Below, one piece after another: positions 1,142 through 57,812 of a stretch of 64,000 bases of DNA. A program made the translations under genes and the position numbers. This stretch comes from Methanoregula formicica SMSP (GTDB lineage Archaea > Halobacteriota > Methanomicrobia > Methanomicrobiales > Methanospirillaceae). The notes beneath the pieces are model-generated. The model made no database searches. It was not told where the DNA came from and worked only from the letters and a program-made list of their open reading frames with translations. Numbering within the stretch: position 1 is the stretch's first letter; each line of letters starts with the position of its first letter. The stretch is from the NCBI RefSeq assembly GCF_000327485.1, contig NC_019943.1:2046001-2110000 (forward strand), written 5' to 3'.

Positions 1142-1660
1142 TCAGCGTGTCCTGCCGGCATGTCTCATCAGCGCGAGCAGGCCGGAAAGGATCTCCTTTG
1201 GGGCCGGCGGGTTGCCCGGGATCTTCAGATCGACTGGAACAATCTTCTCTGCCCCGCCGAGCACGGCGTAAGAACCGGCAAAGATCCCGCCGGTGCAGGC
1301 ATCGTCGCCCACGGCCACCACGAACTTCGGCGACGGCATGGCATCGTAGGTCTTTTGTGCCGCTGCCGCCATGTTGTGGGTCACCGCTCCGGTCACCAGG
1401 AGCACGTCCGCATGGCGGGGAGAAGCCACGAACGTGATGCCGAACCGCTCGACATCGTAATACGGATTCGTGAGATTGTTGATCTCGATCTCGGCTGCAT
1501 TGTCGCTCCCCGTATCAAGTTCGCGGATCGCGAGACTCCCGCCAAACACGGCGTCGACCTCGCGCCGGATCTCCCGGCCCAGTGTCTCGATCTCTTCATC
1601 CCGTGCCGGAATGTCAGCTGTTACTTTCCTCTTCAGCAGGCAGGATAGTACGTTCACCAT
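1142..1660 (-). CDS. hydrogenase-like small subunit (HyfI/NuoB family) lacking all Fe-S ligands
   Basis: A 172-residue protein of the NuoB/HycG family, clear from ERFGITFVASPRHADVLLVTG, SGGIF-like TGGIF and KIVPVDLKIPGNPP. In this family four cysteines bind the proximal [4Fe-4S] cluster (GCNGCE, GAC, PGCPP). Here they align with Asp53, Ala56, Asp120 and Asn150; the only nearby cysteine, Cys122, is shifted by two residues. The fold looks conserved, but the cluster should be absent. It is the last gene of the six-gene operon, 12 bases after the large subunit stop, and has a strong GAGGTGA ribosome binding site overlapping that stop. There are no frameshifts, so this does not look like a decaying gene. 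Confidence 0.88.
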   Translation of the reverse strand: MVNVLSCLLKRKVTADIPARDEEIETLGREIRREVDAVFGGSLAIRELDTGSDNAAEIEINNLTNPYYDVERFGITFVASPRHADVLLVTGAVTHNMAAAAQKTYDAMPSPKFVVAVGDDACTGGIFAGSYAVLGGAEKIVPVDLKIPGNPPAPKEILSGLLALMRHAGRTR

Positions 1661-1672
1661 TGTTACGTCACC

Positions 1673-3253
1673 TCACAGGTCTGTCCCCGCGTAGGACAGG
1701 TTCAGGCTCTTGTTGATGAGCGGGAAATCCGGAACAATCTCCCCCTGGACTGCATGTTCGATGGCCAGCCAGTTGCAGTACGAGGCGGTCCGTACCTTGT
1801 AGCGTTCGACAACCCCGTTCCGGATCCAGACCCAGCAGAGGCTCTGGCCCCGTGCAGATTCCACGAGGGTGAGAGCATAACCGTCCTTTGCTTCCCATGC
1901 CACCCGTACCGGCCCTTCCGGCAGGGAGTCAAGCAGCCGCTCGATCAGGTCGAGCGAGTCCAGGATCTCGGATGCCCGGACGGTAAACCGGGAGAGCACG
2001 TCGCCGTCATGCAGCGTCCTGACGGACGGGGGATGGCGGGAGTAGATGCCATAGGGGTGGTCGACCCGGACATCTCCGTTCCCGCCGGAAGCCCGGGCCG
2101 TCGGCCCGGTGATGTTGAGCGGCCGGAGGATCGATCTCCGGACCACTCCTGTCGGCGAGAACCGGTCGATGACAGATGCGGTCGAGAGCACGATCTTCAG
2201 GCCTGTACGGTACCGTTTCCGGACCTGCCGGACAAACTGCCCGAGCGCCTCAAGATCTTCGGTGCGGATATCGCGGGAGATCCCTCCGGGCACAATCATC
2301 CCCCGCAGGAACCGCGAGCCGGTCAGGTGGGCGTTCATCCGGAACACTTCCTCGCGGATCACCGCAAACTGGCTGGCCCCGAGCGGGAAGGCCACGTCCA
2401 CGAGCATGCCGGCCTGGTCCCCGAGGTGCGAACCGATCCGTTCCAGCTCCATGAGGATGGTCCGCAGGGCCCAGGCCCGTTCCGGCACGTGTGTTCCTGC
2501 AATCCTCTCCACGGCGATACAGAAGGCAACGGTGTTTGCCACGGACTCGTCCCCGCTGACCGCTTCGGCAATGCGGACTACGTCCACGGGTAGTCTTCCT
2601 TCCGCCAGCTTCTCGACCCCGCGGTGCTTATAGAACATCCGGACCTCGAGATTGAAGATCTTCTCGCCGATAACGCTGAACCGGAAATGCCCCGGCTCGA
2701 TGATACCGGCATGGACCGGGCCGACCGGAATCTGGTACACGCCATCACCCTGCACGCCACGGAAGGGATACTCCTTGGACGGTTCCACGGAAGGTTTCAT
2801 CATGGGAGGAATGTTCCCGACACTCTTTTTCAAGGGATGGTAATCATCAGGATAGGTCTCGTGGAGAAGGAGCCTTCGTTCATCGAACGACCCCTCAAAT
2901 GCAATGCCAAACCCGTCCCGGCATTCCCGTTCGGGCCAGCAGGCCGAGGGCAGGAGCCGGGCAATGGATGGGGCAGAGTTCTCCGTATCCAGGACAACGA
3001 CAAGGAGGACACCTTTCTTTTCAAAAACATACAGGAGCGAGAACGGTGTGCCGGACGAGAAGTGCTCGGCGCAGAAAAGGCCGATGAGCGCACACTCGCG
3101 GGCAGCAAGGGATGTGACAAGCGGCAGGAACTCCGGTTCGCTCAGCCGGAGATACCATTCGCCATTGCATCCTTCCGTGATCCGTTCTGAAAGCGCACCC
3201 GGTCCCAGCAGTTCGCGTACCGCCTCTTTCCCCCTGCTCTTCTCTGCAACCAT
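1673..3253 (-). CDS. hydrogenase-like large subunit (HyfG/NuoCD fusion) lacking NiFe ligands
   Basis: A 526-residue protein: a NuoC-like 30 kDa domain (about residues 1-150) fused to a NuoD/HyfG-like 49 kDa domain, as in HycE and HyfG. The family core is clear (IPVGPVHAGIIEPGHF, YKHRGVEKLAEGR). NiFe enzymes have an RxCGxC motif after this; here the segment reads AVSGDESVANTVAF, putting Ser233 and Glu236 at the cysteine positions. The C-terminal DPCxxC is NLSYAG (residues 518-523), so Ser520 and Gly523 replace that pair. No NiFe site can form. The ATG at 3253 overlaps the HyfF-like stop by 4 bases. The frame is also open further upstream, but that part is a shadow of the preceding gene. Confidence 0.9.
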   Translation of the reverse strand: MVAEKSRGKEAVRELLGPGALSERITEGCNGEWYLRLSEPEFLPLVTSLAARECALIGLFCAEHFSSGTPFSLLYVFEKKGVLLVVVLDTENSAPSIARLLPSACWPERECRDGFGIAFEGSFDERRLLLHETYPDDYHPLKKSVGNIPPMMKPSVEPSKEYPFRGVQGDGVYQIPVGPVHAGIIEPGHFRFSVIGEKIFNLEVRMFYKHRGVEKLAEGRLPVDVVRIAEAVSGDESVANTVAFCIAVERIAGTHVPERAWALRTILMELERIGSHLGDQAGMLVDVAFPLGASQFAVIREEVFRMNAHLTGSRFLRGMIVPGGISRDIRTEDLEALGQFVRQVRKRYRTGLKIVLSTASVIDRFSPTGVVRRSILRPLNITGPTARASGGNGDVRVDHPYGIYSRHPPSVRTLHDGDVLSRFTVRASEILDSLDLIERLLDSLPEGPVRVAWEAKDGYALTLVESARGQSLCWVWIRNGVVERYKVRTASYCNWLAIEHAVQGEIVPDFPLINKSLNLSYAGTDL

Positions 3254-4734
3254 CAGAACATCAGCTCCGCAACGACCTGATCCAGGAACGCCACCTCTCC
3301 CGACGTGATGACCGTCCCGAGGATAAGGGTCAGGACAAGGAGGACAATGACAGGAAGGTTCATACCGGCGGGGGTCTGGTAACGGACAATCTCTGCGTGT
3401 GCCCCGGGGCCGGATACCTGCGTGAACGTGCGGAGCACGAAGTACCCGAATGCCCCGGCAGCGATGAAGAGCAGGACGAGAAGGATGACCAGGGCAACAG
3501 GTGAGAAGCCCGCCAGCTGCACGAGGAGGAAGAACTTCGAGAGGAAGACCGGGAAGAGCGGCATCCCGGTGATGGCAAGGCCGCCAAGGACGATCCCCCA
3601 TGCCGCAACCGGCTGGAGGGCGAAGACATCCCGCATATCGTCCACCGCATCCGGGGAGAGTGTGCTGTGGTACTGGCGGTGGAGGATACCGGCAGAGAAG
3701 AAGAGGCCGGCTTTCGTGAACGCATGGGCCATCACATGGAAGAGCACCCAGAAGATGGCAAGGGGGGTTGCAACCGCGAGCCCGATGAGAAGGATCCCCA
3801 TGTTCTCGATACTGGAGAACGCGATCAGCTTCTTGAGTTTCTTCTGGGGAAGCATGGACAGGGCCGCGATGAAGACCGTCAGGAGGCCGAAGATCAGGAG
3901 CAGGAGCGAGACCGTGGAGACTGCGGTTGTCTGGTGGACGATGGCAAAGACGCGGATGATGCCATAGATCCCCACATTCAGGAGGACCCCGGATAGGATC
4001 GCACTCACTGCTGACGGCGCCCGTACATGGGCTTCGGGAAGCCAGGTATGGAAGGGGAATATACCCGACTTTGCGGCAAAGCCGATGAAGATGAGGGCGA
4101 ATGCCGCGATCACCATGCCGGGCGGGAAGGATCCGGCCTGCTGCATCAGGACGGTCCAGTTGAGGGTGCCGGTACCCACGACGCTCCGCGAGATCTCGAA
4201 GAGGAATATGAGGCCGACGAACGAGAAGAGCATGGAGACCGACGCGATGAAGATGTACTTGATAGCTGCATCGATGTTGTCCCGTGCGTACAGGATCGCG
4301 ACCAGCATGGCGGAGATGACCGTTGTCAGCTCGGTGAAGATCCAGAAGAGGGCAAGGTTGTCCGAGAAGAACGCAAGGACGATGACCAGCAGGAGGAAGG
4401 CCCAGGAACCATAGAAGAGCTTCAGGCTCCCCCGGGAAAGTTCCCGCGCCTCGATCAGGTTCTCGACATACCCTCTCGCATAGACCGCGGCGAGAAGGAA
4501 GATGACGGTGGCAATGAGCACTTCGTAGATGCCCAGATGGTCGATGAAGAAGAATTCGTTCCCGACCGTAAGCAAGGTCATGGGGATCTGCCCGGAAAGG
4601 ATGAGCCAGGCCGAGATGCAGAGGAAGATGGCGGCTTCTGCGATACAGGCCGAGTTCATCTGCCGGTGGGTCCGGCCCAGTGCAATGGCGGCAAGCGCCG
4701 CTGCCGCGACGAGGACAAAAGCTGCGAGGATCAT
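3253..4734 (-). CDS. proton-conducting membrane subunit, HyfF-like (NuoM/NuoN family)
   Basis: A 493-residue polytopic membrane protein of the Mrp-antiporter-like family, with about 14 hydrophobic helices. The signature segment AKSGIFPFHTWLPEAHV includes the conserved lysine and histidine of the ion path, followed by APSAVSAILSGVLLNVG. A glutamate in IFTELTTVIS lies in the helix that normally carries the TM5 glutamate. Loss of electron-transfer cofactors in the soluble subunits is therefore not matched by loss of the channel residues here. It shares 4-base ATGA overlaps with both the gene before (HyfE-like) and the gene after (large subunit), so tight translational coupling is likely. Confidence 0.9.
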   Translation of the reverse strand: MILAAFVLVAAAALAAIALGRTHRQMNSACIAEAAIFLCISAWLILSGQIPMTLLTVGNEFFFIDHLGIYEVLIATVIFLLAAVYARGYVENLIEARELSRGSLKLFYGSWAFLLLVIVLAFFSDNLALFWIFTELTTVISAMLVAILYARDNIDAAIKYIFIASVSMLFSFVGLIFLFEISRSVVGTGTLNWTVLMQQAGSFPPGMVIAAFALIFIGFAAKSGIFPFHTWLPEAHVRAPSAVSAILSGVLLNVGIYGIIRVFAIVHQTTAVSTVSLLLLIFGLLTVFIAALSMLPQKKLKKLIAFSSIENMGILLIGLAVATPLAIFWVLFHVMAHAFTKAGLFFSAGILHRQYHSTLSPDAVDDMRDVFALQPVAAWGIVLGGLAITGMPLFPVFLSKFFLLVQLAGFSPVALVILLVLLFIAAGAFGYFVLRTFTQVSGPGAHAEIVRYQTPAGMNLPVIVLLVLTLILGTVITSGEVAFLDQVVAELMF

Positions 4735-5423
4735 GGCCCGTCCTCCGTGTCACCCACAAGATGGAAGCGGTGGAGGCGCTGGTGGTACTCTTCGAGCGTG
4801 GAGTCGAGGCCGACGGTTAAGATCGTAGTCAGTATCACGAGGATGATGAGGTCGATGATGATCAGGAACTCGATGATGAACGGGAGCTCGGTGACAAACA
4901 TCCCAAAGAGCAGCACGCCATTCTCCATTGAGAGGTAGCCAAGGACCTTTGTTATAGCCCGTTTCCGCGAGAACGTGACCATCATCCCCATGAGCATCAG
5001 GGAGAGGCCGATGACGGCGCCGAAGAAGAAGAGGCTCTCCCGGGCAGGAGTCCCTTCAAGGATATTTGCCAGCGCTATGTAGATGAAGAGAATCAGGGCC
5101 ATGGAGAGGAGGAGCGAGGTCGTGGGGCTCAGGAAATGGAACTCGATGTCGCGCCGGATCCGGATCCGTTCCTGGATGCTGGCGATGAAGTAGGGGATGA
5201 CGATCACCTTGCTCACGAACGTTACCGCGGCGATGGCAAGGAGGACGGTCGCGCCCTCAAGCGACCAGAGGGCGAGCGCCATAAGGACAAGAGTGAGCGA
5301 CTGGAGGGCGTAGACCGATACCAACGAGATGAGGTTCCTTGTCGAGATGATGTAGGCTGCCGTGACTATGACAACCGCAAAGAGGATCCGGATTACTGAC
5401 TGGATGAGCGCGGGATCGATCAT
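4731..5423 (-). CDS. membrane subunit HyfE-like (NuoK-related)
   Basis: A 230-residue membrane protein with about seven hydrophobic helices, like HyfE of hydrogenase 4: an N-terminal extension plus a NuoK-like C-terminal half. The NuoK-type glutamate is visible in KVLGYLSMENGVLLFG, and a further acidic helix follows (FIIEFLIIIDLIILV). In complex I and group 4 hydrogenases this subunit lies between the antiporter subunits and the NuoH-like subunit and lines the proton path. It has ATGA overlaps on both sides within the operon. Confidence 0.88.
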   Translation of the reverse strand: MIDPALIQSVIRILFAVVIVTAAYIISTRNLISLVSVYALQSLTLVLMALALWSLEGATVLLAIAAVTFVSKVIVIPYFIASIQERIRIRRDIEFHFLSPTTSLLLSMALILFIYIALANILEGTPARESLFFFGAVIGLSLMLMGMMVTFSRKRAITKVLGYLSMENGVLLFGMFVTELPFIIEFLIIIDLIILVILTTILTVGLDSTLEEYHQRLHRFHLVGDTEDGP

Positions 5424-6361
5424 GCGAACACCTCGATGATGATGATGAGCGTGGAGAAGAAGAACGCCATGGCAAAGAGGCTCGGGAGGCGGAAGAACCG
5501 CATCTTCGCCATCGAAGACTCAAAGAGGCCGATGATCGCGGCAAGGACCGTGGCCTTGAGAACAAAGAGGACTGCCGCCACCGCGATCGTGCCGATTGCA
5601 AGCGTCGTGGTGAGACCGAAGGGGACGATGAGGTTGATTAAAAGCGCCATCAGGAGCGTGAGTTTCACGGCTGCCGAGAGTTCCATGAGCGCCAGGTTCT
5701 TGCCGGACTGCTCAAGGATCATCCCCTCGTGGATCATGGTCAGTTCCAGGTGGGTCTCCGGGTTGTCGACCGGGATCCGTGAAGTCTCGACCACGAGGAT
5801 GATGAAGAGCGAGATCCCCAGCAGGATGAGGGTGGGGGTGGCGGGTGCGCCGGCGGCAGCGGATGCGGCAAACATGTCGAAGACATTTAAGGATTTGAAG
5901 ACAAAGACCAGCGCGGCAAAGACGATGATGGTCGTTGGCTCGATGATGGCCGAGATGCTCATCTCCCGTGAGCTGCCCATGCCGCCAAACGAACTGCCTG
6001 CGTCAAGGCCGGCGAGCGCCATGAAGAACCGGGCAAGCGCGAGGAGGTAGAGCAACAGGATGATATTGCCTATCCCCCCAACCGGCTCGGGAACGAAGAC
6101 GAGCGGGACGAAGAGTGCGGCGACCAGTACCGCAGCAATGCTCACATAGGGCGTCAGCCGCATGATCCACGAGGAGTGTGACGAGTACACCGTCTCCTTC
6201 TTCAGCAGTTTTGCAAGGGTGAAGTAGGTCTGGAAGACGGACGGCCCGCTCCTCCCCTGTGCCCGGGCTTTCACTTTTTTGATAAGGCTGACAAACAGCG
6301 GTGCAACGAGCAGCACGGCTGATGTGTTGAGCACCAGGTACAGGCCAAAGGAAAGGTTCAT
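5420..6361 (-). CDS. membrane subunit HyfC-like (NuoH family)
   Basis: A 313-residue NuoH/HyfC-type membrane anchor with about eight helices. Family hallmarks are visible: ARAQGRSGPSVFQTYF near the N terminus and RIPVDNPETHLELTMIHEG, the acidic loop that meets the large and small subunits. These acidic residues are kept although the partner subunits have lost their cofactors. I chose the ATG at 6361 because it forms the same 4-base ATGA overlap with the upstream stop that the other membrane genes show. A GTG nine bases earlier (6370) is the alternative. Confidence 0.88.
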   Translation of the reverse strand: MNLSFGLYLVLNTSAVLLVAPLFVSLIKKVKARAQGRSGPSVFQTYFTLAKLLKKETVYSSHSSWIMRLTPYVSIAAVLVAALFVPLVFVPEPVGGIGNIILLLYLLALARFFMALAGLDAGSSFGGMGSSREMSISAIIEPTTIIVFAALVFVFKSLNVFDMFAASAAAGAPATPTLILLGISLFIILVVETSRIPVDNPETHLELTMIHEGMILEQSGKNLALMELSAAVKLTLLMALLINLIVPFGLTTTLAIGTIAVAAVLFVLKATVLAAIIGLFESSMAKMRFFRLPSLFAMAFFFSTLIIIIEVFA

Positions 6362-8295
6362 GCCAGCCACCCCAGGAAGACGATGACCGCGATCACGGCG
6401 CAGAAGACATAGAGAAGGTACGTGTCAAGGCACCCGCTCTGGAACCGGGAGACCGTCTCCGCGGTCGCATACGAGGCCCGCGCAACGGGCAGGTACAGGT
6501 ATTCCTCGAATACTTTGATGAGCCGGATCCCGGCATTGCCTCCGGCAAAGATGCAGTTCTTCTGGTCAAAGAACATGCGTTCGTTCTTCATCTTTGTCCG
6601 GTACACGGTGGAGAAGATGATGTCGATGGGTTCCGAGAACCCGTGACCGGAGTACTCCATCGCCGGCTGCTGCGAGAGCGTACCGCACCCCCAGGTTCCG
6701 GTAACCCGCACGTCCCGGGATGCTGTAAAGAAGAGGGCCGCAAACGTAAGGACGAGCATGGCGAGCAGGAGCAGGCCGACAAGGAACAGGTCGGGCATCG
6801 GCACGGTGAAACCGGTGAGGAGGAAGATCTGGGCGGCAAAGAGACCAAGGAGGATACAGGCCGATGCAAGCAGCGCAGGGCCAAACAGCATCAGGAAAGG
6901 AACCTCTTCTGCCCTGCCACTCTCCGGAGAGCGGGGGAGCGCTAAAAAGACCGATCCGAACGCCTTGACAAAACAGGCTGCCGAGAGCGCGCTTGTCAGG
7001 GCAAAAAGGCCAAGGCAGAGGAAGAGCAGCACCTTGAAGAGCGGGTCTGCCACCGCAATGGAAGAGAAGAACGAGATGAACAGCAACACTTCGCTCGCAA
7101 ACCCGTTCAGCGGGGGGAGGGCCGCGATGGCAAGCGCACCGACAAAGAACAGCCCGGCAGTGAACGGCATCCGGTGGATGAGTCCGCCCATCTTCTCGAT
7201 GTCCCGGGTATGCGTGGCATGGACAACGGAACCGGCCGTCAGGAAGAGGAGGCTCTTGAACATGGCGTGGTTGAGGGCATGGAAGAGGGCGGAGAGCAGG
7301 CTGATCAGGGCAAGATCAAAAAGCTGGTAACTGGAGAAGATTACATACAGGCCGATACCCATGAAGATGATGCCGGTATTCTCGATGCTGCTGTACGCGA
7401 GCATGGCCTTGATATCGTACTCCTTTAAAGCGTAGATGATCCCGAGGACAGCCGTTGCCGTGCCCATGACAAGGATGAGGAGCCCCCACCAGAGTTCCGG
7501 TGAGAACACATCCAGCAGGAAACGGAGAAGCCCGTACACCGCGATCTTGAGCATCACGCCGGACATGAGGGCCGATATCGGCGTCGGGCTCGCGGGATGG
7601 GCATAGGGAAGCCACTTGTGGAACGGGATGATGCCGGCCTTGATGGAGAAACCGATAAGGAGGGCTACTAAAGCAATGGCCGAAACGGGCGAGACGCCAG
7701 CTGGTGCCAGGGCAAAGGATCCTGTCGAGAGGACGAGGAGGACGATACCCAGCAGGACAAAGAGCGTCGAGAGATGGGTCATCACGAAATAGAAGAGCCC
7801 GGCCTTCCGCGTCGCGGCACGGGAATAGTCGTACATCACGAGAAGGAACGAGCACCCTGCCATGAGTTCCCAGAAGACCAGGAAGGAGAAGGTGTTGGCT
7901 GAAGCCACCACGAGCACCATGGAGAGGATGAACAGGTTCGTGCAGGCAGAGAGGAGATTCCTGCGCAAGCCCCCTTCAAGATGCTCGTTGTATTCTGCCG
8001 CATAGAGGGCAACGCATACCGACACCACGGAAATCAGGAGCAGGAAGAAGGCGGAGAGCCGGTCGATGGCAAACGAGAGGGAAAAGCCGGCAACCGGCTG
8101 GTACGCAGTCCAGGCAATATCGTTGCCGGTAAGGAGGAGGAAGAGCGAGAGGGCCCCGAGGAGAACAGATCCGGCGATGGTGCAGAGCTGCGATCCGGCC
8201 CGGAAGATACGGCGGTCCTGCCATGCGCCGGCAAGGGGCAGGAAGACCCCGACAACAAAGATACCGAGGGAGATGATGAAGAGCCCTGCGATCAT
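6358..8295 (-). CDS. proton-conducting membrane subunit, HyfB-like (NuoL family)
   Basis: The first gene of the operon, a 645-residue polytopic protein of the NuoL/HyfB antiporter family. FWELMAGCSFLLVMYD contains the TM5 glutamate, and FSIKAGIIPFHKWLPYAHPA contains the conserved lysine and the HKWLP motif, so the ion pathway looks complete. The C terminus extends beyond the core with extra helices, as in HyfB. I chose the ATG at 8295 because GGTGATC lies just upstream and the protein then starts directly with its first helix (MIAGLFIISL). A longer frame back to 8352 would add 19 polar residues with no family support. Confidence 0.88.
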   Translation of the reverse strand: MIAGLFIISLGIFVVGVFLPLAGAWQDRRIFRAGSQLCTIAGSVLLGALSLFLLLTGNDIAWTAYQPVAGFSLSFAIDRLSAFFLLLISVVSVCVALYAAEYNEHLEGGLRRNLLSACTNLFILSMVLVVASANTFSFLVFWELMAGCSFLLVMYDYSRAATRKAGLFYFVMTHLSTLFVLLGIVLLVLSTGSFALAPAGVSPVSAIALVALLIGFSIKAGIIPFHKWLPYAHPASPTPISALMSGVMLKIAVYGLLRFLLDVFSPELWWGLLILVMGTATAVLGIIYALKEYDIKAMLAYSSIENTGIIFMGIGLYVIFSSYQLFDLALISLLSALFHALNHAMFKSLLFLTAGSVVHATHTRDIEKMGGLIHRMPFTAGLFFVGALAIAALPPLNGFASEVLLFISFFSSIAVADPLFKVLLFLCLGLFALTSALSAACFVKAFGSVFLALPRSPESGRAEEVPFLMLFGPALLASACILLGLFAAQIFLLTGFTVPMPDLFLVGLLLLAMLVLTFAALFFTASRDVRVTGTWGCGTLSQQPAMEYSGHGFSEPIDIIFSTVYRTKMKNERMFFDQKNCIFAGGNAGIRLIKVFEEYLYLPVARASYATAETVSRFQSGCLDTYLLYVFCAVIAVIVFLGWLA

Positions 8296-8408
8296 GATAC
8301 GATCACCGGGACCCCGGAAGCTGTGGCGTTCCCGCCGTGAACAGCAAGGCACGATCCAGAAAAAACGCCCGACATTTTAAGAAGTTGCTGATACCGATCC
8401 ATTGAGAT

Positions 8409-8687: not shown

Positions 8688-9035
8688 TCATACCAGCGCT
8701 TTCTCAATCTCCGCCTTTGTCCGGTCAAGGACGATCCGGCCGATCTTGGTTACCCTGCCATTGACCAGGATCATGGGGATGGGCGGGTGCTCGTGCTCGA
8801 TAATTTCCTTGATATAATTTGGAGTTCCCTCATCGAGAAGGGTCAGTTTCGTTTCCACGCGGTCGCCATACGCTGCTTTCAGGGCATTTGTGAGCGCCTG
8901 GAAGGCAGCGACCAGTTTTCCGGAATGGAAGCATTCTTCAAGACCGCAGGTACGGTCATCGTCACAGGGAAAAGGGGAGCACTCCGAGGTCTTCAGGCCG
9001 ACAACTTCGACCGTTACGGTTCCAGCCATGCCCAT
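8688..9035 (-). CDS. small cysteine-rich thioredoxin-fold-like protein
   Basis: I do not recognise a named family. The 115-residue protein starts with a beta strand (TVTVEVVGL), followed by a cysteine-rich segment SECSPFPCDDDRTCGLEEC with four cysteines. Its C-terminal half contains PPIPMILVNGRVTKIGRI, like the cis-proline strand of thioredoxin-fold proteins. A thioredoxin-like redox or metal-binding protein is the best guess. The start is ATG 9035 or 9029; neither has a clear ribosome binding site, and an AT-rich box near 9045-9055 suggests a near-leaderless transcript. It lies beside the FTR-rubredoxin and glutaredoxin genes on the same strand. Confidence 0.7.
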   Translation of the reverse strand: MGMAGTVTVEVVGLKTSECSPFPCDDDRTCGLEECFHSGKLVAAFQALTNALKAAYGDRVETKLTLLDEGTPNYIKEIIEHEHPPIPMILVNGRVTKIGRIVLDRTKAEIEKALV

Positions 9036-9188
9036 GATCTTTGCGGGAAAAGTATAAGAGAATGTTCAAAATGGCATAGTGTATCCTTGCTGGCGCAAAG
9101 GGGGGATTATTACAGGGAATAGGCATTCACCATAACACACAATTGTTCAATCGCCCGAAAAAGAGGGTATCAACAATCCTGAAAAAAA

Positions 9189-9719
9189 TTACAGGAACCG
9201 CTCGAACCGGTCCTTTTTTGCCTTGCAGACCGGGCAGATGCCCGGGGGCTGATCGCGTGCGCAGAGATAGCCGCATACCTTGCAGCGCCAGACCGGGAAC
9301 GGGAGGCTCCCGAAGGTTGCCCCTCCACCGACTGCGACCGTCTGGACAGCACGCTCCTTCATCGTTCCCCGCTGGGAGCGGGGCGGGCGGCGTTCGGGAA
9401 CGGGCGCGACCTTCCGCGTACCGTCTGCGATCGCCTCGCTGACGTACAGGGCGCAGTAACAGGCGCCATGCTCCTCAATGTCCGAATCGCGGTAATCGCA
9501 GGGACAGATGATGTCAAGATCCTCTTCTTTTTTCCCGGAAGCCAGCCGGCAGGGGCAGGCCCGGTACCCGTACCGCTGTTCGTTCTTCAGGAGACCTCGG
9601 ATAAGGTTTTTCACAAACTCTGCATCCGGGTTGAGGAGGTATCCCCCGTCCAGGGCATCCTTCCTGAGAGCATCATATGCCCGGTCAACGTCCTGCTCGC
9701 TGATGCCGGTAAACGTCAT
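9189..9719 (-). CDS. ferredoxin:thioredoxin reductase catalytic domain fused to rubredoxin
   Basis: A 176-residue two-domain protein. Residues 1-100 carry the FTR beta-chain cysteine pattern: RACPCRLA, IICPCDYRD and HGACYC, which hold a [4Fe-4S] cluster next to a redox-active disulfide. After a basic, Pro/Arg-rich linker, the last ~40 residues form a rubredoxin-like domain (WRCKVCGYLC and GICPVC). Such proteins pass single electrons from ferredoxin or rubredoxin-type donors to disulfides. The gene overlaps the upstream glutaredoxin by an ATGA, and that protein is the obvious partner. No separate FTR variable chain is visible in this window. Confidence 0.88.
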   Translation of the reverse strand: MTFTGISEQDVDRAYDALRKDALDGGYLLNPDAEFVKNLIRGLLKNEQRYGYRACPCRLASGKKEEDLDIICPCDYRDSDIEEHGACYCALYVSEAIADGTRKVAPVPERRPPRSQRGTMKERAVQTVAVGGGATFGSLPFPVWRCKVCGYLCARDQPPGICPVCKAKKDRFERFL

Positions 9720-9991
9720 GGTGCTAGGGCCTCCCGGATCTCCTGCTCACGGAACCCGATGATGACCTTGTTATTGTTGATCACAAGCGTGGGGAATGAG
9801 CCGCTGGGATTAAACTTCTCGACCAGCGTAATCGCATCCTCCTGCTCTTTGCCATCCAGAAGATCGACAAAGGTATAATCGAATGCCACTCCGATCTCGC
9901 GGAGGAGATCCTTGGTCTTTGCACACCACCCGCATGTGGAGAGCGCGTACAGCACGACGTTTCCCTTGTCCTTTCCGTCAACGTGTTCCAT
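9716..9991 (-). CDS. glutaredoxin-like protein
   Basis: A 91-residue single-domain glutaredoxin/NrdH-type protein. The active site CGWC is near residues 20-23 after YALSTCGWCAKTKDLL, the cis-proline strand is GSFPTLVINN, and GFREQEIREAL forms the last helix. It is translationally coupled (4-base overlap) to the FTR-rubredoxin fusion, so the pair probably forms a ferredoxin-dependent dithiol reducing system. A TATA box upstream (10039-10046) fits transcription start near 10015. Confidence 0.9.
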   Translation of the reverse strand: MEHVDGKDKGNVVLYALSTCGWCAKTKDLLREIGVAFDYTFVDLLDGKEQEDAITLVEKFNPSGSFPTLVINNNKVIIGFREQEIREALAP

Positions 9992-10038
9992 GAAACCGGG
10001 TCTCCCTCTGTTGTATGATGGGAAGTTGCGGCAGATAG

Positions 10039-10046
10039 TATTTATA
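10039..10046 (-). promoter_or_regulatory. TATA box of the glutaredoxin/FTR operon
   Basis: The minus strand reads TATAAATA, preceded by GGG. Transcription would start about 25 bases downstream (near 10015), leaving a leader of about 24 bases before the glutaredoxin ATG at 9991. Confidence 0.55.
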
Positions 10047-10108
10047 CCCGGGGATAGTGCGCAGAGATATCCGGGAAAAAAGAGTTGTGGATGATTGAGG
10101 TTCTGTCT

Positions 10109-10606
10109 TCACTTCTTCTTCATGATGATCTCGACGTCTTCGAGAAGTGCCTGAAGGTCTTCCTCATGTTCGACTTCCTGCGAGAGGATCGTGAGGAGGA
10201 TATTGTAGGTGACCGGGTCTTTGTCTTTTGTCTTCTTCATCAGGGAATTGTACGTCTTGATGGCGCACTGCTCGCCCTTGATGTTCTGTTCTAAAATCTT
10301 CACGATGAACGGGTCATCCGGGGCATCGTACCCGCAGTTGGTGAACTTGTACCAGTCCTGCGGCTTGGTTATGGGTGTTCCGCCAAGCTGGATGATGCGG
10401 GTCGTCAGCAGTGTCGCGTGGTTCAGTTCTTCGGTTGCATGGAGCGTGAGTTCGCTGATGACCGCTTCCTTGTTGGGACCCTTGACAACCTTGGAGCCGA
10501 TCCAGTACTGGTAGTAGGCGAGCCATTCATCGCAATAGGCCTTGTTGAGCAGGTTCACGATCTCCTTTACGTCGCTTCCGACAATCTTCTGTCCTAGTGT
10601 TCCCAT
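10109..10606 (-). CDS. ferritin-like / DPS-like di-iron protein
   Basis: A 165-residue four-helix ferritin-like protein. Iron-ligand type residues occur in the expected pattern: DEWLAYYQYW on helix A, ELTLHATEELNHA (E..H) on helix B, NIKGEQCAIKTYN on helix C and LSQEVEHEEDL (E..H) on helix D. This fits the bacterioferritin/DPS-like superfamily, which oxidises and stores iron or removes peroxide. A strong ribosome binding site (AGAGGTGA) precedes the ATG at 10606, and a TTTAAA box sits near 10656. Divergent from carA. Together with the neighbouring thiol-redox genes, an oxidative-stress role is likely. Confidence 0.85.
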   Translation of the reverse strand: MGTLGQKIVGSDVKEIVNLLNKAYCDEWLAYYQYWIGSKVVKGPNKEAVISELTLHATEELNHATLLTTRIIQLGGTPITKPQDWYKFTNCGYDAPDDPFIVKILEQNIKGEQCAIKTYNSLMKKTKDKDPVTYNILLTILSQEVEHEEDLQALLEDVEIIMKKK

Positions 10607-52591: not shown

Positions 52592-55128
52592 ATTACTTAC
52601 ACTTACCAGGGCGCGCAGTACATCATATTTCAATCCTTGTTCTCGTGGATGTTTCGCTCGAAGAAAAAACAGGGGTGGATCAACCTCATGAATCGGGGTT
52701 TCAATCCTTGTTCTCGTGGATGTTTCGCTCGAAGGACATTTACCCAATGGCTGATTGGCAGTTAGCGATGTTTCAATCCTTGTTCTCGTGGATGTTTCGC
52801 TCGAAGTATTTACGGCGTTCTGTTCAATCTTAACCGCCGGATAGGGTTTCAATCCTTGTTCTCGTGGATGTTTCGCTCGAAGGTTACGGGGGAGAAGGGA
52901 CTGCATTGCGGTCTTACATGTTTCAATCCTTGTTCTCGTGGATGTTTCGCTCGAAGACCGAGCAGGGCAAACGCTCGCTGGCGGTTCTTGAGTTTCAATC
53001 CTTGTTCTCGTGGATGTTTCGCTCGAAGCAGGGGTAACTTTGCTGGGTTCAAGCAGGTGTGTCCGAGTTTCAATCCTTGTTCTCGTGGATGTTTCGCTCG
53101 AAGTCCTATAACATCGCACGCAACAGTGGTCTTTCGGGGTTTCAATCCTTGTTCTCGTGGATGTTTCGCTCGAAGCAAGAGGCGGAAAACAAACACCTCA
53201 CGGTTGACGGGTTTCAATCCTTGTTCTCGTGGATGTTTCGCTCGAAGGGAATTATCTTGTATTCAGTCATTCGCACGATGGCTGTTTCAATCCTTGTTCT
53301 CGTGGATGTTTCGCTCGAAGCCTATAGGTAATATAGGTAATTGTCGCCCGGCTTGGTTTCAATCCTTGTTCTCGTGGATGTTTCGCTCGAAGAAACTCTC
53401 ATTTTGGGCTTCTTTTCCAAGTGGTTTGTTTCAATCCTTGTTCTCGTGGATGTTTCGCTCGAAGTGTTTTATCCGAGCGGTGCGCCCGGGTCAAAAGGGT
53501 TTCAATCCTTGTTCTCGTGGATGTTTCGCTCGAAGGGTACTCGAAATCATTGATAGTCGTAGTGTTTGGGTTTCAATCCTTGTTCTCGTGGATGTTTCGC
53601 TCGAAGCAGAATTGAATGAACAGATTGCAGAACTCGAAGCAAAAGTTTCAATCCTTGTTCTCGTGGATGTTTCGCTCGAAGCCAGAATATAGTATTATGC
53701 ATTTGTAGCCGGTGAGTTTCAATCCTTGTTCTCGTGGATGTTTCGCTCGAAGCATCGAGAAGGACGGCGGGTTGCTCGTCAAGGGTGGTTTCAATCCTTG
53801 TTCTCGTGGATGTTTCGCTCGAAGTTTACAGTATTGCGGGTGTATTATTCATCTGCACGATTTGTTTCAATCCTTGTTCTCGTGGATGTTTCGCTCGAAG
53901 AGACGAAATGGAAAAAAAGAAATTGACGCACTGCGGTTTCAATCCTTGTTCTCGTGGATGTTTCGCTCGAAGGTACATATTAATCATCTCAGACCATGTT
54001 CCTTATCAGTTTCAATCCTTGTTCTCGTGGATGTTTCGCTCGAAGTCGTCTGGCTTACGCTCTTTCTTTTCAGCCATCTTTGTTTCAATCCTTGTTCTCG
54101 TGGATGTTTCGCTCGAAGAGGGTATGATACCTTACAACAATCTTTTTGTGAGGTGGTTTCAATCCTTGTTCTCGTGGATGTTTCGCTCGAAGGTCCACCT
54201 GGTAAGCGGTATTTTAGTGGTTTTTGGTTTCAATCCTTGTTCTCGTGGATGTTTCGCTCGAAGTGCGGCAAGGTCTATGTTGAAATGAAATTCGTTGTTG
54301 TTTCAATCCTTGTTCTCGTGGATGTTTCGCTCGAAGGTAATGGTTCCAAATTCCGATCTGGTGTTATCAAGTTTCAATCCTTGTTCTCGTGGATGTTTCG
54401 CTCGAAGGGAAAGCGTCACATCGTCCACTACCGCAGATCCGGCGGTTTCAATCCTTGTTCTCGTGGATGTTTCGCTCGAAGTACGGAAATTCTGCGACAT
54501 TTTCCCACCGTCGGGAGTTTCAATCCTTGTTCTCGTGGATGTTTCGCTCGAAGCGTGTGGGTTGTCGAGGGGTGATACCGTGGTTTTCAGTTTCAATCCT
54601 TGTTCTCGTGGATGTTTCGCTCGAAGGGGGATCAATGGAGACTATACTATACCGGAAATGAGTTTCAATCCTTGTTCTCGTGGATGTTTCGCTCGAAGAT
54701 ACACCGGCTGGTTATGGCACGGGCGCATGGTGGTTTCAATCCTTGTTCTCGTGGATGTTTCGCTCGAAGTTTAATGTCTGTTGAACCAACATCGGAACCA
54801 ACAGGTTTCAATCCTTGTTCTCGTGGATGTTTCGCTCGAAGGGAATGAACACAGAGAGTGTTTCATCAATGTGGAGTTTCAATCCTTGTTCTCGTGGATG
54901 TTTCGCTCGAAGTCTGGCATAACCGCTTGATACTCTTCATAGAGTTGTTTCAATCCTTGTTCTCGTGGATGTTTCGCTCGAAGATGATTGTAGGATCGAA
55001 GGCGAAGAAGAAGATGAATGTTTCAATCCTTGTTCTCGTGGATGTTTCGCTCGAAGTGCTTCTTTTCTTGTGTAGAACACTTTTCCTATGAGTTTCAATC
55101 CTTGTTCTCGTGGATGTTTCGCTCGAAG

Positions 55129-55313
55129 GTGAAACCATGTTAGCACCCGATACAATCAAACGAAGTTTCAATCCTTGTTCTCGTGGATGTTTCGCTCGAA
55201 GCAAGCTTTGCTACAATCTAATGTTGTCTTGGGGTATATTGTTTCAATCCTTGTTCTCGTGGATGTTTCGCTCGAAGGTGAAACCATGTTAGCACCCGAT
55301 ACAATCAAACGAA
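55129..55313 (-). repeat. identical spacer present twice in the array
   Basis: The 36-base spacers at 55129-55164 and 55278-55313 (both starting GTGAAACCATG and ending CAAACGAA) are identical. They are separated by two repeats and one different spacer (55202-55240). All other spacers I compared by eye look distinct. Confidence 0.95.
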
Positions 55314-57812
55314 GTTTCAATCCTTGTTCTCGTGGATGTTTCGCTCGAAGCCGTTCCTGTTCTCTTAAGAGGGGAGGGGAGGGGGGTTTCAATCCTTGTT
55401 CTCGTGGATGTTTCGCTCGAAGTGACAATCGGTTGGGTATATCCATCATTCCTGATGTTTCAATCCTTGTTCTCGTGGATGTTTCGCTCGAAGTGTGGGG
55501 TCCCAATCGGGCCCTTCTTTCGTCCACGGTTTCAATCCTTGTTCTCGTGGATGTTTCGCTCGAAGCCAGCCGGAGGCGATCATGGCTCCGTTGATCGCAC
55601 CAGTTTCAATCCTTGTTCTCGTGGATGTTTCGCTCGAAGAAACGCCCGGAACGGTCAAGGCGCCCGTTAAGAAAAAGTTTCAATCCTTGTTCTCGTGGAT
55701 GTTTCGCTCGAAGCATACTTACCGCGGGGGAACGAGGCACATTCCTGGAGTTTCAATCCTTGTTCTCGTGGATGTTTCGCTCGAAGAAGTAGTTCTCGGA
55801 TCTCCACATCTCGTAAGTTTGTTTCAATCCTTGTTCTCGTGGATGTTTCGCTCGAAGTATTTCTTAATTAATAATATACAATTAGGCTCAAAGTTTCAAT
55901 CCTTGTTCTCGTGGATGTTTCGCTCGAAGTGAATATTTCTTTTCAGGCAGTCTTTACCATTTTGTTTCAATCCTTGTTCTCGTGGATGTTTCGCTCGAAG
56001 GGAACGGGTGTTCCTGTAGTAGTTGGAATAGGTGTGTTTCAATCCTTGTTCTCGTGGATGTTTCGCTCGAAGGTATTGCGGGAAACTGATCACGGCCCGG
56101 GATGAATGTTTCAATCCTTGTTCTCGTGGATGTTTCGCTCGAAGCTCTCTTCCGGAGTACTTGCATAACATAACATAACAGTTTCAATCCTTGTTCTCGT
56201 GGATGTTTCGCTCGAAGCCGGAACTCTTTCATGTACGGCAGATAATCACGGGTTTCAATCCTTGTTCTCGTGGATGTTTCGCTCGAAGAAGTCGAAGAAT
56301 TTAAGATACTGTCACATGATTGGTTTCAATCCTTGTTCTCGTGGATGTTTCGCTCGAAGGCATCTCCTCAAAAATCCTCTACGCGTGGAGAGGGTTTCAA
56401 TCCTTGTTCTCGTGGATGTTTCGCTCGAAGGCAAAGTGCGCGGAATTTTGCATGCGGTTTGTCAAGGGTTTCAATCCTTGTTCTCGTGGATGTTTCGCTC
56501 GAAGGTATTAGGGGATGCATGGCACAACCAGTTTAATCCGCAGTTTCAATCCTTGTTCTCGTGGATGTTTCGCTCGAAGTCATATCAATGTCATATTGGT
56601 ATGCCCGGTGGTGGTTTCAATCCTTGTTCTCGTGGATGTTTCGCTCGAAGTATCAGGTTTTCTGTTGCTTGTGTGGCATGGCCCTGTTTCAATCCTTGTT
56701 CTCGTGGATGTTTCGCTCGAAGTGGACTGGTCACGACACCGCATTCACATTCCAATAGTTTCAATCCTTGTTCTCGTGGATGTTTCGCTCGAAGCCAACA
56801 GGTCAGTTCTACAACCATGCGTTATCATAGGTTTCAATCCTTGTTCTCGTGGATGTTTCGCTCGAAGTTATCCTACCAGTGACCACGGAACCCGAGATAT
56901 GGAGTTTCAATCCTTGTTCTCGTGGATGTTTCGCTCGAAGCAGGTGGTAGTTGAACGACCCTTATACCTGATCGAGTTTCAATCCTTGTTCTCGTGGATG
57001 TTTCGCTCGAAGACTGATCACGGGACGATCTATTACGAGCGGAGAGGTTTCAATCCTTGTTCTCGTGGATGTTTCGCTCGAAGCCAGTACAAAGGATACC
57101 CTGGTGGATACGCTTGGCTGAGTTTCAATCCTTGTTCTCGTGGATGTTTCGCTCGAAGGTACTTCTGCACCGTCACACTGGATCGGGCGCTGGAGTTTCA
57201 ATCCTTGTTCTCGTGGATGTTTCGCTCGAAGGATACCACATTTTAGATCGAACTAATACTTTCTTCGTTTCAATCCTTGTTCTCGTGGATGTTTCGCTCG
57301 AAGTGTTGAGAATCCATCGTCACCGAATGACCAATTGGTTTCAATCCTTGTTCTCGTGGATGTTTCGCTCGAAGTTCGCCCGGGACAACACCGGCAAGCC
57401 TGGTGGATGGTTTCAATCCTTGTTCTCGTGGATGTTTCGCTCGAAGGGTGGAGTATATACCTGGACAGAGATTGGCAGCCCATGTTTCAATCCTTGTTCT
57501 CGTGGATGTTTCGCTCGAAGCCAGACCCAGATATTCGGATCTCCTGATGAGGTATCAGGTTTCAATCCTTGTTCTCGTGGATGTTTCGCTCGAAGTGGAG
57601 CCTACAAGTCCACTTCGCACACCTGAGCAGAGTTTCAATCCTTGTTCTCGTGGATGTTTCGCTCGAAGAAGTCTGCTATTCCATTACCATTGGCAGCATA
57701 TATGTTTCAATCCTTGTTCTCGTGGATGTTTCGCTCGAAGAATAGTCTCTAATGAGAAGTAACTAAAATCAAAGAGTTTCAATCCTTGTTCTCGTGGATG
57801 TTTCGCTCGAAG

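Follow-up and report, generated by a model that had tools for sequence, protein, structure and literature searches.

The window analysed here is a stretch of 64,000 nucleotides from the genome of Methanoregula formicica SMSP. It contains six tightly coupled genes on the minus strand, ehrABCDLS:

6358..8295, minus strand: ehrA, a HyfB-HycC-like antiporter subunit of the NuoL type with a C-terminal ND3-like part (Pfam Proton_antipo_M; NCBIfam NF006418)
5420..6370, minus strand: ehrB, a HyfC-HycD-like NuoH subunit with the E-channel (Pfam NADHdh; HycD 7z0s_D, E = 2.8e-42)
4731..5423, minus strand: ehrC, a HyfE-like membrane subunit (NCBIfam NF008556, hydrogenase 4 membrane subunit, below cut-off; kept in orthologous operons)
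3253..4734, minus strand: ehrD, a HyfF-like antiporter subunit (Pfam Proton_antipo_M; NCBIfam NF006427, above cut-off)
1673..3253, minus strand: ehrL, a fused NuoC/NuoD (HycE-like) large subunit of 526 amino acids without NiFe ligands (phmmer, Pfam, VIA-align)
1142..1660, minus strand: ehrS, a NuoB/HycG-like small subunit of 172 amino acids without [4Fe-4S] ligands (Pfam Oxidored_q6; AF2)

The reading frame of ehrA opens at 8352, and the methionine at 8295 is the likelier start; the NF006418 match is above cut-off and begins at residue 20, and the protein also matches HycC (7z0s_C, E = 6.9e-66). The HyfE-like subunit had no match among solved structures. The same six-gene order was found in the examined orthologous Methanoregula loci, contig ends or a broken gene aside. 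Two antiporter-like subunits, a NuoH-like and a HyfE-like subunit, and a large and a small subunit make up the set of an energy-converting hydrogenase-related (Ehr) complex, and the large subunit lacks both CxxC motifs, as those of Ehr complexes do. The operon encodes neither a ferredoxin-like subunit nor any other with Fe-S, and conserved cysteine clusters were not found in it outside the usual ligand positions. Elsewhere in the window (52698-57812) lies a large CRISPR array whose 37-nt repeat (Rfam RF01320, CRISPR-DR7) is matched 71 times, always on the minus strand.

The large subunit

Two motifs occupy the positions at which a [NiFe] hydrogenase would hold its metal centre:

2543..2557, minus strand: SGDES (residues 233-237) at the N-terminal CxxC position (alignment and codons)
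1679..1702, minus strand: NLSYAGTD (residues 518-525) at the C-terminal DPCxxC position (alignment and codons)

Pfam recognizes a NuoC domain (residues 56-144) fused to NuoD in EhrL. The protein matches HycE of the E. coli formate hydrogenlyase (FHL; 7z0s_E) with E = 4.2e-77 in phmmer, and its AF2 model superimposes on HycE with Z 49.5 and an rmsd of 2.0 A over 515 residues (VIA-align). In the phmmer alignment the two CxxC pairs of HycE fall on Ser233/Glu236 and Ser520/Gly523, whose codons are AGC, GAG, TCC and GGG. The preliminary description had reported that all four NiFe cysteines are gone from a HycE-like protein whose frame is intact and coupled to its neighbours. Its residue numbers prove exact, the strand, which it left out, is the minus strand, and the coupling is visible in a TGATG overlap between the stop of the HyfF-like gene and the start of ehrL, and in a gap of 12 nt between ehrL and ehrS.

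Neither a relocation of the ligands nor a sequencing error accounts for these substitutions. No cysteine pair takes their place in the pocket and no conserved pair was found elsewhere in the large subunit, in which only Cys245 is near-invariant (98% in the Cys-less clade defined below, 83% in ordinary Ehr). A sequencing error can be rejected because the substitutions are fixed across 21 aligned Methanoregula sequences, and SGDE(S/T) and LSYAG recur in other genera. Conservation of the replacements in the Cys-less clade is 98% for Ser233 and 100% each for Glu236, Ser520 and Gly523. EhrL thus lacks the two NiFe-binding CxxC motifs by which group 4 [NiFe] hydrogenases are recognized. Nor does the complex have the features of complex I or Fpo, as Glu186 stands in the beta1-beta2 loop in place of the NuoD histidine and the small subunit has no N2-type cluster cysteine. 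By our reading of the phmmer alignment, the quinone tyrosine Tyr87 of Nqo4 aligns at Gly234.

The small subunit

The cluster-cysteine positions of EhrS are likewise taken by other residues:

1493..1510, minus strand: GSDNAA (residues 51-56), with Asp53 and Ala56 at the first two cluster-cysteine positions (alignment and codons)
1295..1309, minus strand: GDDAC (residues 118-122), with Asp120 at the third position; Cys122 is not at a ligand position (alignment and codons)
1205..1216, minus strand: GNPP (residues 149-152), with Asn150 at the fourth position (alignment and codons)

The usual motifs GSCNxC, GxC and GCPP therefore read GSDNAA, GDD and GNPP, in a protein whose AF2 model is confident (pLDDT 93.5) and resembles MbhJ (6cfw_J; Z 20.3, VIA). 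Together, the large and small subunits lack all eight cofactor cysteines, four for NiFe and four for [4Fe-4S]. The replacements are close to fixed among 47 Cys-less sequences (Asp53 98%, Asp120 94%, Asn150 98%; position 56 is mostly Ala or Thr), and Cys122 is conserved in 100% of them. All four small-subunit cysteines are retained in 47 other Ehr loci whose large subunit lacks CxxC; this division of 47 against 47 is by construction, and the two classes also part on the tree. EhrS has none of the four [4Fe-4S] cysteines of the ordinary Fe-S Ehr subtype. These cysteines are general in the other Ehr complexes compared, and we found no published criterion that makes them a condition of Ehr membership.

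The two losses differ in novelty. Cysteine loss in the large subunit is the defining feature of Ehr complexes in published work, and Anderson et al. (2009; PMC2686161) described it for Mhun_1817-1822 and the homologues in M. acetivorans and M. mazei. The small-subunit loss, of which we found no report for Ehr in the open-access literature, appears from the sequences to be a new aspect of this known family. With it, the complex is better read as probably carrying out no redox chemistry than as a redox enzyme in modified form.

Ion-translocating residues and selection

Residues of the FHL structure (PMC9474812) were mapped onto the complex. In the large subunit, the equivalents of HycE E193 (E186, 98%), R478 (R468, 100%), E437 (E429, 98%), R395 (R387, 96%) and H284 (H276, 85%) are conserved; one canonical proton-path residue, HycE D529, is lost, its equivalent N518 being Asn in 98%. 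In the NuoH-like subunit, the equivalents of HycD E138, E189, E201, E203 and E206 are E/E/H/E/E (EhrB E144, E195, H207, E209 and E215), each at 100% in the Cys-less clade. The other HycD equivalents are Tyr in 97% (Y102), Glu in 90% (E130), Glu in 86% (E199), and Arg or Lys (R108). The antiporter Glu/Lys residues are invariant in both the HyfB-like (E162, K238, K366) and the HyfF-like subunit (E135, K222, K341), with HyfB E421 at 97%. The ND3-loop cysteine (HycC C537, HyfB C556) is present in 100%. Residue 400 of the HyfF-like subunit, in TM12, is Lys in most Cys-less complexes, although Glu occurs in one Methanoregula subclade; in Cys-containing Ehr, 97% have Glu there.

All six genes are under purifying selection, with dN/dS of 0.03-0.25 in close pairs. 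The ion-translocating and coupling residues are retained and the cofactor ligands are gone, so the ion-translocating and coupling parts have been kept and the electron path has not. The view of ehrL as a working gene of the Ehr type that cannot encode a [NiFe] hydrogenase thus stands, given the intact operon and the selection on it. What changes in that view is that the large-subunit loss was taken as a surprise and the small-subunit loss had gone unseen.

Distribution and phylogeny

Of the 36 genomes in the genus, which was searched first, 24 carry orthologues with at least 60% identity. Across the order, 35 of 199 genomes, in 8 of 38 genera, have close small-subunit matches, and all those whose motifs were read are Cys-less. 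The small-subunit search also matches two further families of the phylum, one of them the Methanosarcinaceae, and a contig scan adds Methanosarcina, one Altiarchaeales MAG and Dehalococcoidia MAGs, plus many ordinary Ehr. The occurrence in Dehalococcoidia MAGs may reflect binning error or transfer. On the Altiarchaeales MAG contig (L070:15820-20858) a second HyfB-C-E-F membrane set follows the complete operon, with no large or small subunit directly after it in the stretch read.

The doubly Cys-less clade thus comprises Methanoregula, Methanospirillum (including M. hungatei JF1), Methanosarcina and some MAGs. The M. hungatei genes Mhun_1817-1822 are of this type (GSDNAAE, GDDACTGG, PGNPPTP), and the loss of ligands speaks against the published annotation of this Ehr as likely ferredoxin-reducing.

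In a tree built from the aligned large and small subunits with the ligand columns removed, the complex falls among Ehr, apart from the NiFe group 4 paralogues of archaea. Within the Ehr part, one branch has the Cys-less sequences on one side, with support 93 (29 rows) and 100 (reduced set). Three CPR Ehr loci (L119, L121, L133) have a small subunit that keeps a single cluster cysteine out of four; its third and fourth positions are Asp, and the first is Asp or Thr. The tree favours two independent small-subunit losses, one in the archaeal clade and one in CPR. We do not claim convergence, as the AU test does not reject a single origin (p = 0.13).

Proposed function

With the binding sites for NiFe and [4Fe-4S] gone and the channel parts intact, the driver or gate should be something other than electron flow. 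On balance, the sequences and models make it probable that ehrABCDLS encodes a six-subunit, complex-I-like translocator without a conventional redox cofactor site, in which cation or proton translocation is not redox-driven and is gated or driven by protonation or ligand binding. The hydrogenase-like arm would have given up its NiFe and proximal [4Fe-4S] ligands and kept its connection to the membrane arm through the inter-arm residues, and no electrons would pass through the complex. The former active-site cavity may serve as a protonatable or ligand-binding switch, with Asp53, Asp120 and Asn150 of the small subunit and Asp235, Glu236, Tyr521 and Arg468 of the large subunit as putative switch residues. 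Such a switch could gate or couple the movement of H+ or Na+ through NuoH and the two antiporter-like subunits, and the role of the complex would then be in ion or pH homeostasis. Points against this reading are the loss of the HycE D529 equivalent and the conservation of the large and small subunits far beyond the apparent need of passive ion transport, so that these two subunits must do something specific.

A natural complex that has the ion-translocating and connecting residues and no redox-cofactor ligands would offer a test bed for the function of the arms without electrons. It could also help to decide between pumping, exchange and gating of ions as the work of Ehr complexes.

Gene neighbourhood and alternative explanations

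We think it unlikely that redox chemistry has been retained, with electrons carried by a cofactor that is not Cys-ligated, by a thiol pair (such as Cys122 of the small and Cys245 of the large subunit) or by an unlinked protein. Redox roles of this sort have been proposed for other Ehr, namely FDH-Ehr and the ferredoxin reduction annotated for M. hungatei. The near-complete conservation of these two cysteines is consistent with such a role, as are published statements that Ehr complexes couple redox reactions to ion transport. Genes for thiol and iron redox also lie just upstream of the operon (window 8688-10606), encoding a Trx-like protein of 115 amino acids with no family match, a fusion of the FTR catalytic beta chain with a rubredoxin-like part, a YruB-type glutaredoxin and a Dps/ferritin-like protein. 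Most Methanoregula loci share this upstream cluster in synteny with ehr, and the genus-level group g111 keeps the Trx-like gene in the stretch read. However, no thiol-redox gene accompanies Ehr in the Methanosarcina or Dehalococcoidia loci, and we reject them as partners because the synteny is confined to Methanoregula and, in part, g111. Cys245 is, moreover, frequent in ordinary Ehr too, and for this fold no route of electron entry is known other than the small subunit, in which no cluster ligand is left.

All neighbouring ORFs were clustered over 14 genus-level groups. Once the operon itself, unassigned ORFs, antisense frames and proteins of the two-component type were discounted, the recurrent neighbours were a GNAT-like ORF in five genera, a beta-carbonic anhydrase (beta-CA) in four, and FdhC with an adjoining ORF in three. 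The GNAT-like acetyltransferase ORF (for example L045:13919-14623 and L207:2654-3358) is co-directional and directly upstream of hyfB, and is absent at the window locus. The beta-CA is canonical (CxDSR/HxxC, Pfam Pro_CA), and its position relative to the operon takes three forms. In a Methanoregula subset and g111 it is upstream and divergent, in five Methanospirillum genomes it lies upstream, and in two genomes of group g118 it lies downstream. The chance of such adjacency is about 1e-5 to 8e-5, a crude, post hoc figure before allowing for the many families examined.

The proximity of beta-CA and FdhC suggests a coupling to CO2, bicarbonate and formate that resembles DAB. DAB2 offers a precedent: it is a PMF-driven complex of a NuoL-like and a beta-CA-like subunit, so that a NuoL-like subunit can serve non-redox chemistry (PMC13144422). 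In such a scheme the complex would act with the beta-CA, and perhaps with formate uptake or oxidation, and the ion gradient would drive or control the interconversion or export of CO2/HCO3-. No beta-CA was matched in the Cys-containing Ehr loci L075-L146, which fits a link to the Cys-less type. The link is suggestive rather than universal, because the beta-CA (1.847 Mb) and fdhC (1.842 Mb) of M. formicica lie about 200 kb from ehr, with no CA-ehr adjacency, and among carriers of the complex seven Methanosarcinaceae gave no beta-CA match, nor did two genomes from a different family. A beta-CA also stands beside fdhC without Ehr in Methanoregula, and no CA domain was found within the complex, so we regard this coupling as rather improbable. 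The sole beta-CA found in the M. formicica genome is about 4 kb from fdhC (G000:C1:1842467-1847593), as it is in several other Methanoregula. A fuller version is likewise improbable. In it, a redox-free member of the complex I superfamily would have its hydrogenase/quinone-reductase module turned into a cofactor-less proton or ligand switch, which works together with formate transport and carbonic anhydrase so that methanogens spend the ion gradient on handling CO2/bicarbonate.

It is quite improbable that the membrane arm recruits, in trans, the redox subunits of Ech or of some other group 4 hydrogenase, leaving the encoded large and small subunits as a structural or inhibitory decoy. The M. 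formicica genome does encode further large subunits of the group 4 type, of which one or more have CxxC, but a homologous operon is reported from M. acetivorans, in which Ech is absent (PMC2686161), and the large and small subunits are co-encoded with the membrane subunits under purifying selection. A decaying, non-functional operon, which the loss of every cofactor ligand might suggest, is strongly disfavoured and the pseudogene reading rejected, given frames and operon intact in many genomes of several genera, dN/dS well below 1 and near-fixed replacement residues.

Comparison with known systems

The complex proposed here as a non-redox translocator is most readily placed beside the known Ehr complexes ('Pmh' of Methanospirillum and Methanosarcina), with which it shares six subunits of the HyfB/C/E/F, NuoCD and NuoB types and the large-subunit motifs SGDx and LSYxG. 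It differs from them in having none of the four small-subunit [4Fe-4S] cysteines, in a fixed Glu236 and in the mostly Lys, not Glu, residue of HyfF TM12. The CPR Ehr complexes have likewise lost small-subunit cluster cysteines, three of the four, but they keep one Cys, have another gene order and branch separately on the tree. The formate hydrogenlyase of E. coli (HycE/HycG/HycD/HycC) has the same fold and subunit types and most of the same E-channel and proton-path residues, whereas the window complex lacks the CxxC motifs, the cluster ligands and HycB-, HycF- or FdhF-like subunits in the operon.

With DAB2 (DabA-DabB) the complex shares a NuoL-like membrane subunit, shown by others to be coupled to non-redox work in DAB2, and in some genera a beta-CA gene nearby. 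Unlike the DAB carbonic-anhydrase complex, the operon has no DabA and encodes NuoH, two antiporter subunits and NuoCD/B. It also differs from the Mrp Na+/H+ antiporters, as no MrpB, MrpE, MrpF or MrpG gene of the MrpA-G set was seen in the operon and NuoH and hydrogenase-like subunits are present, but it has in common with them the MrpA/D-like subunits and their Glu/Lys machinery.
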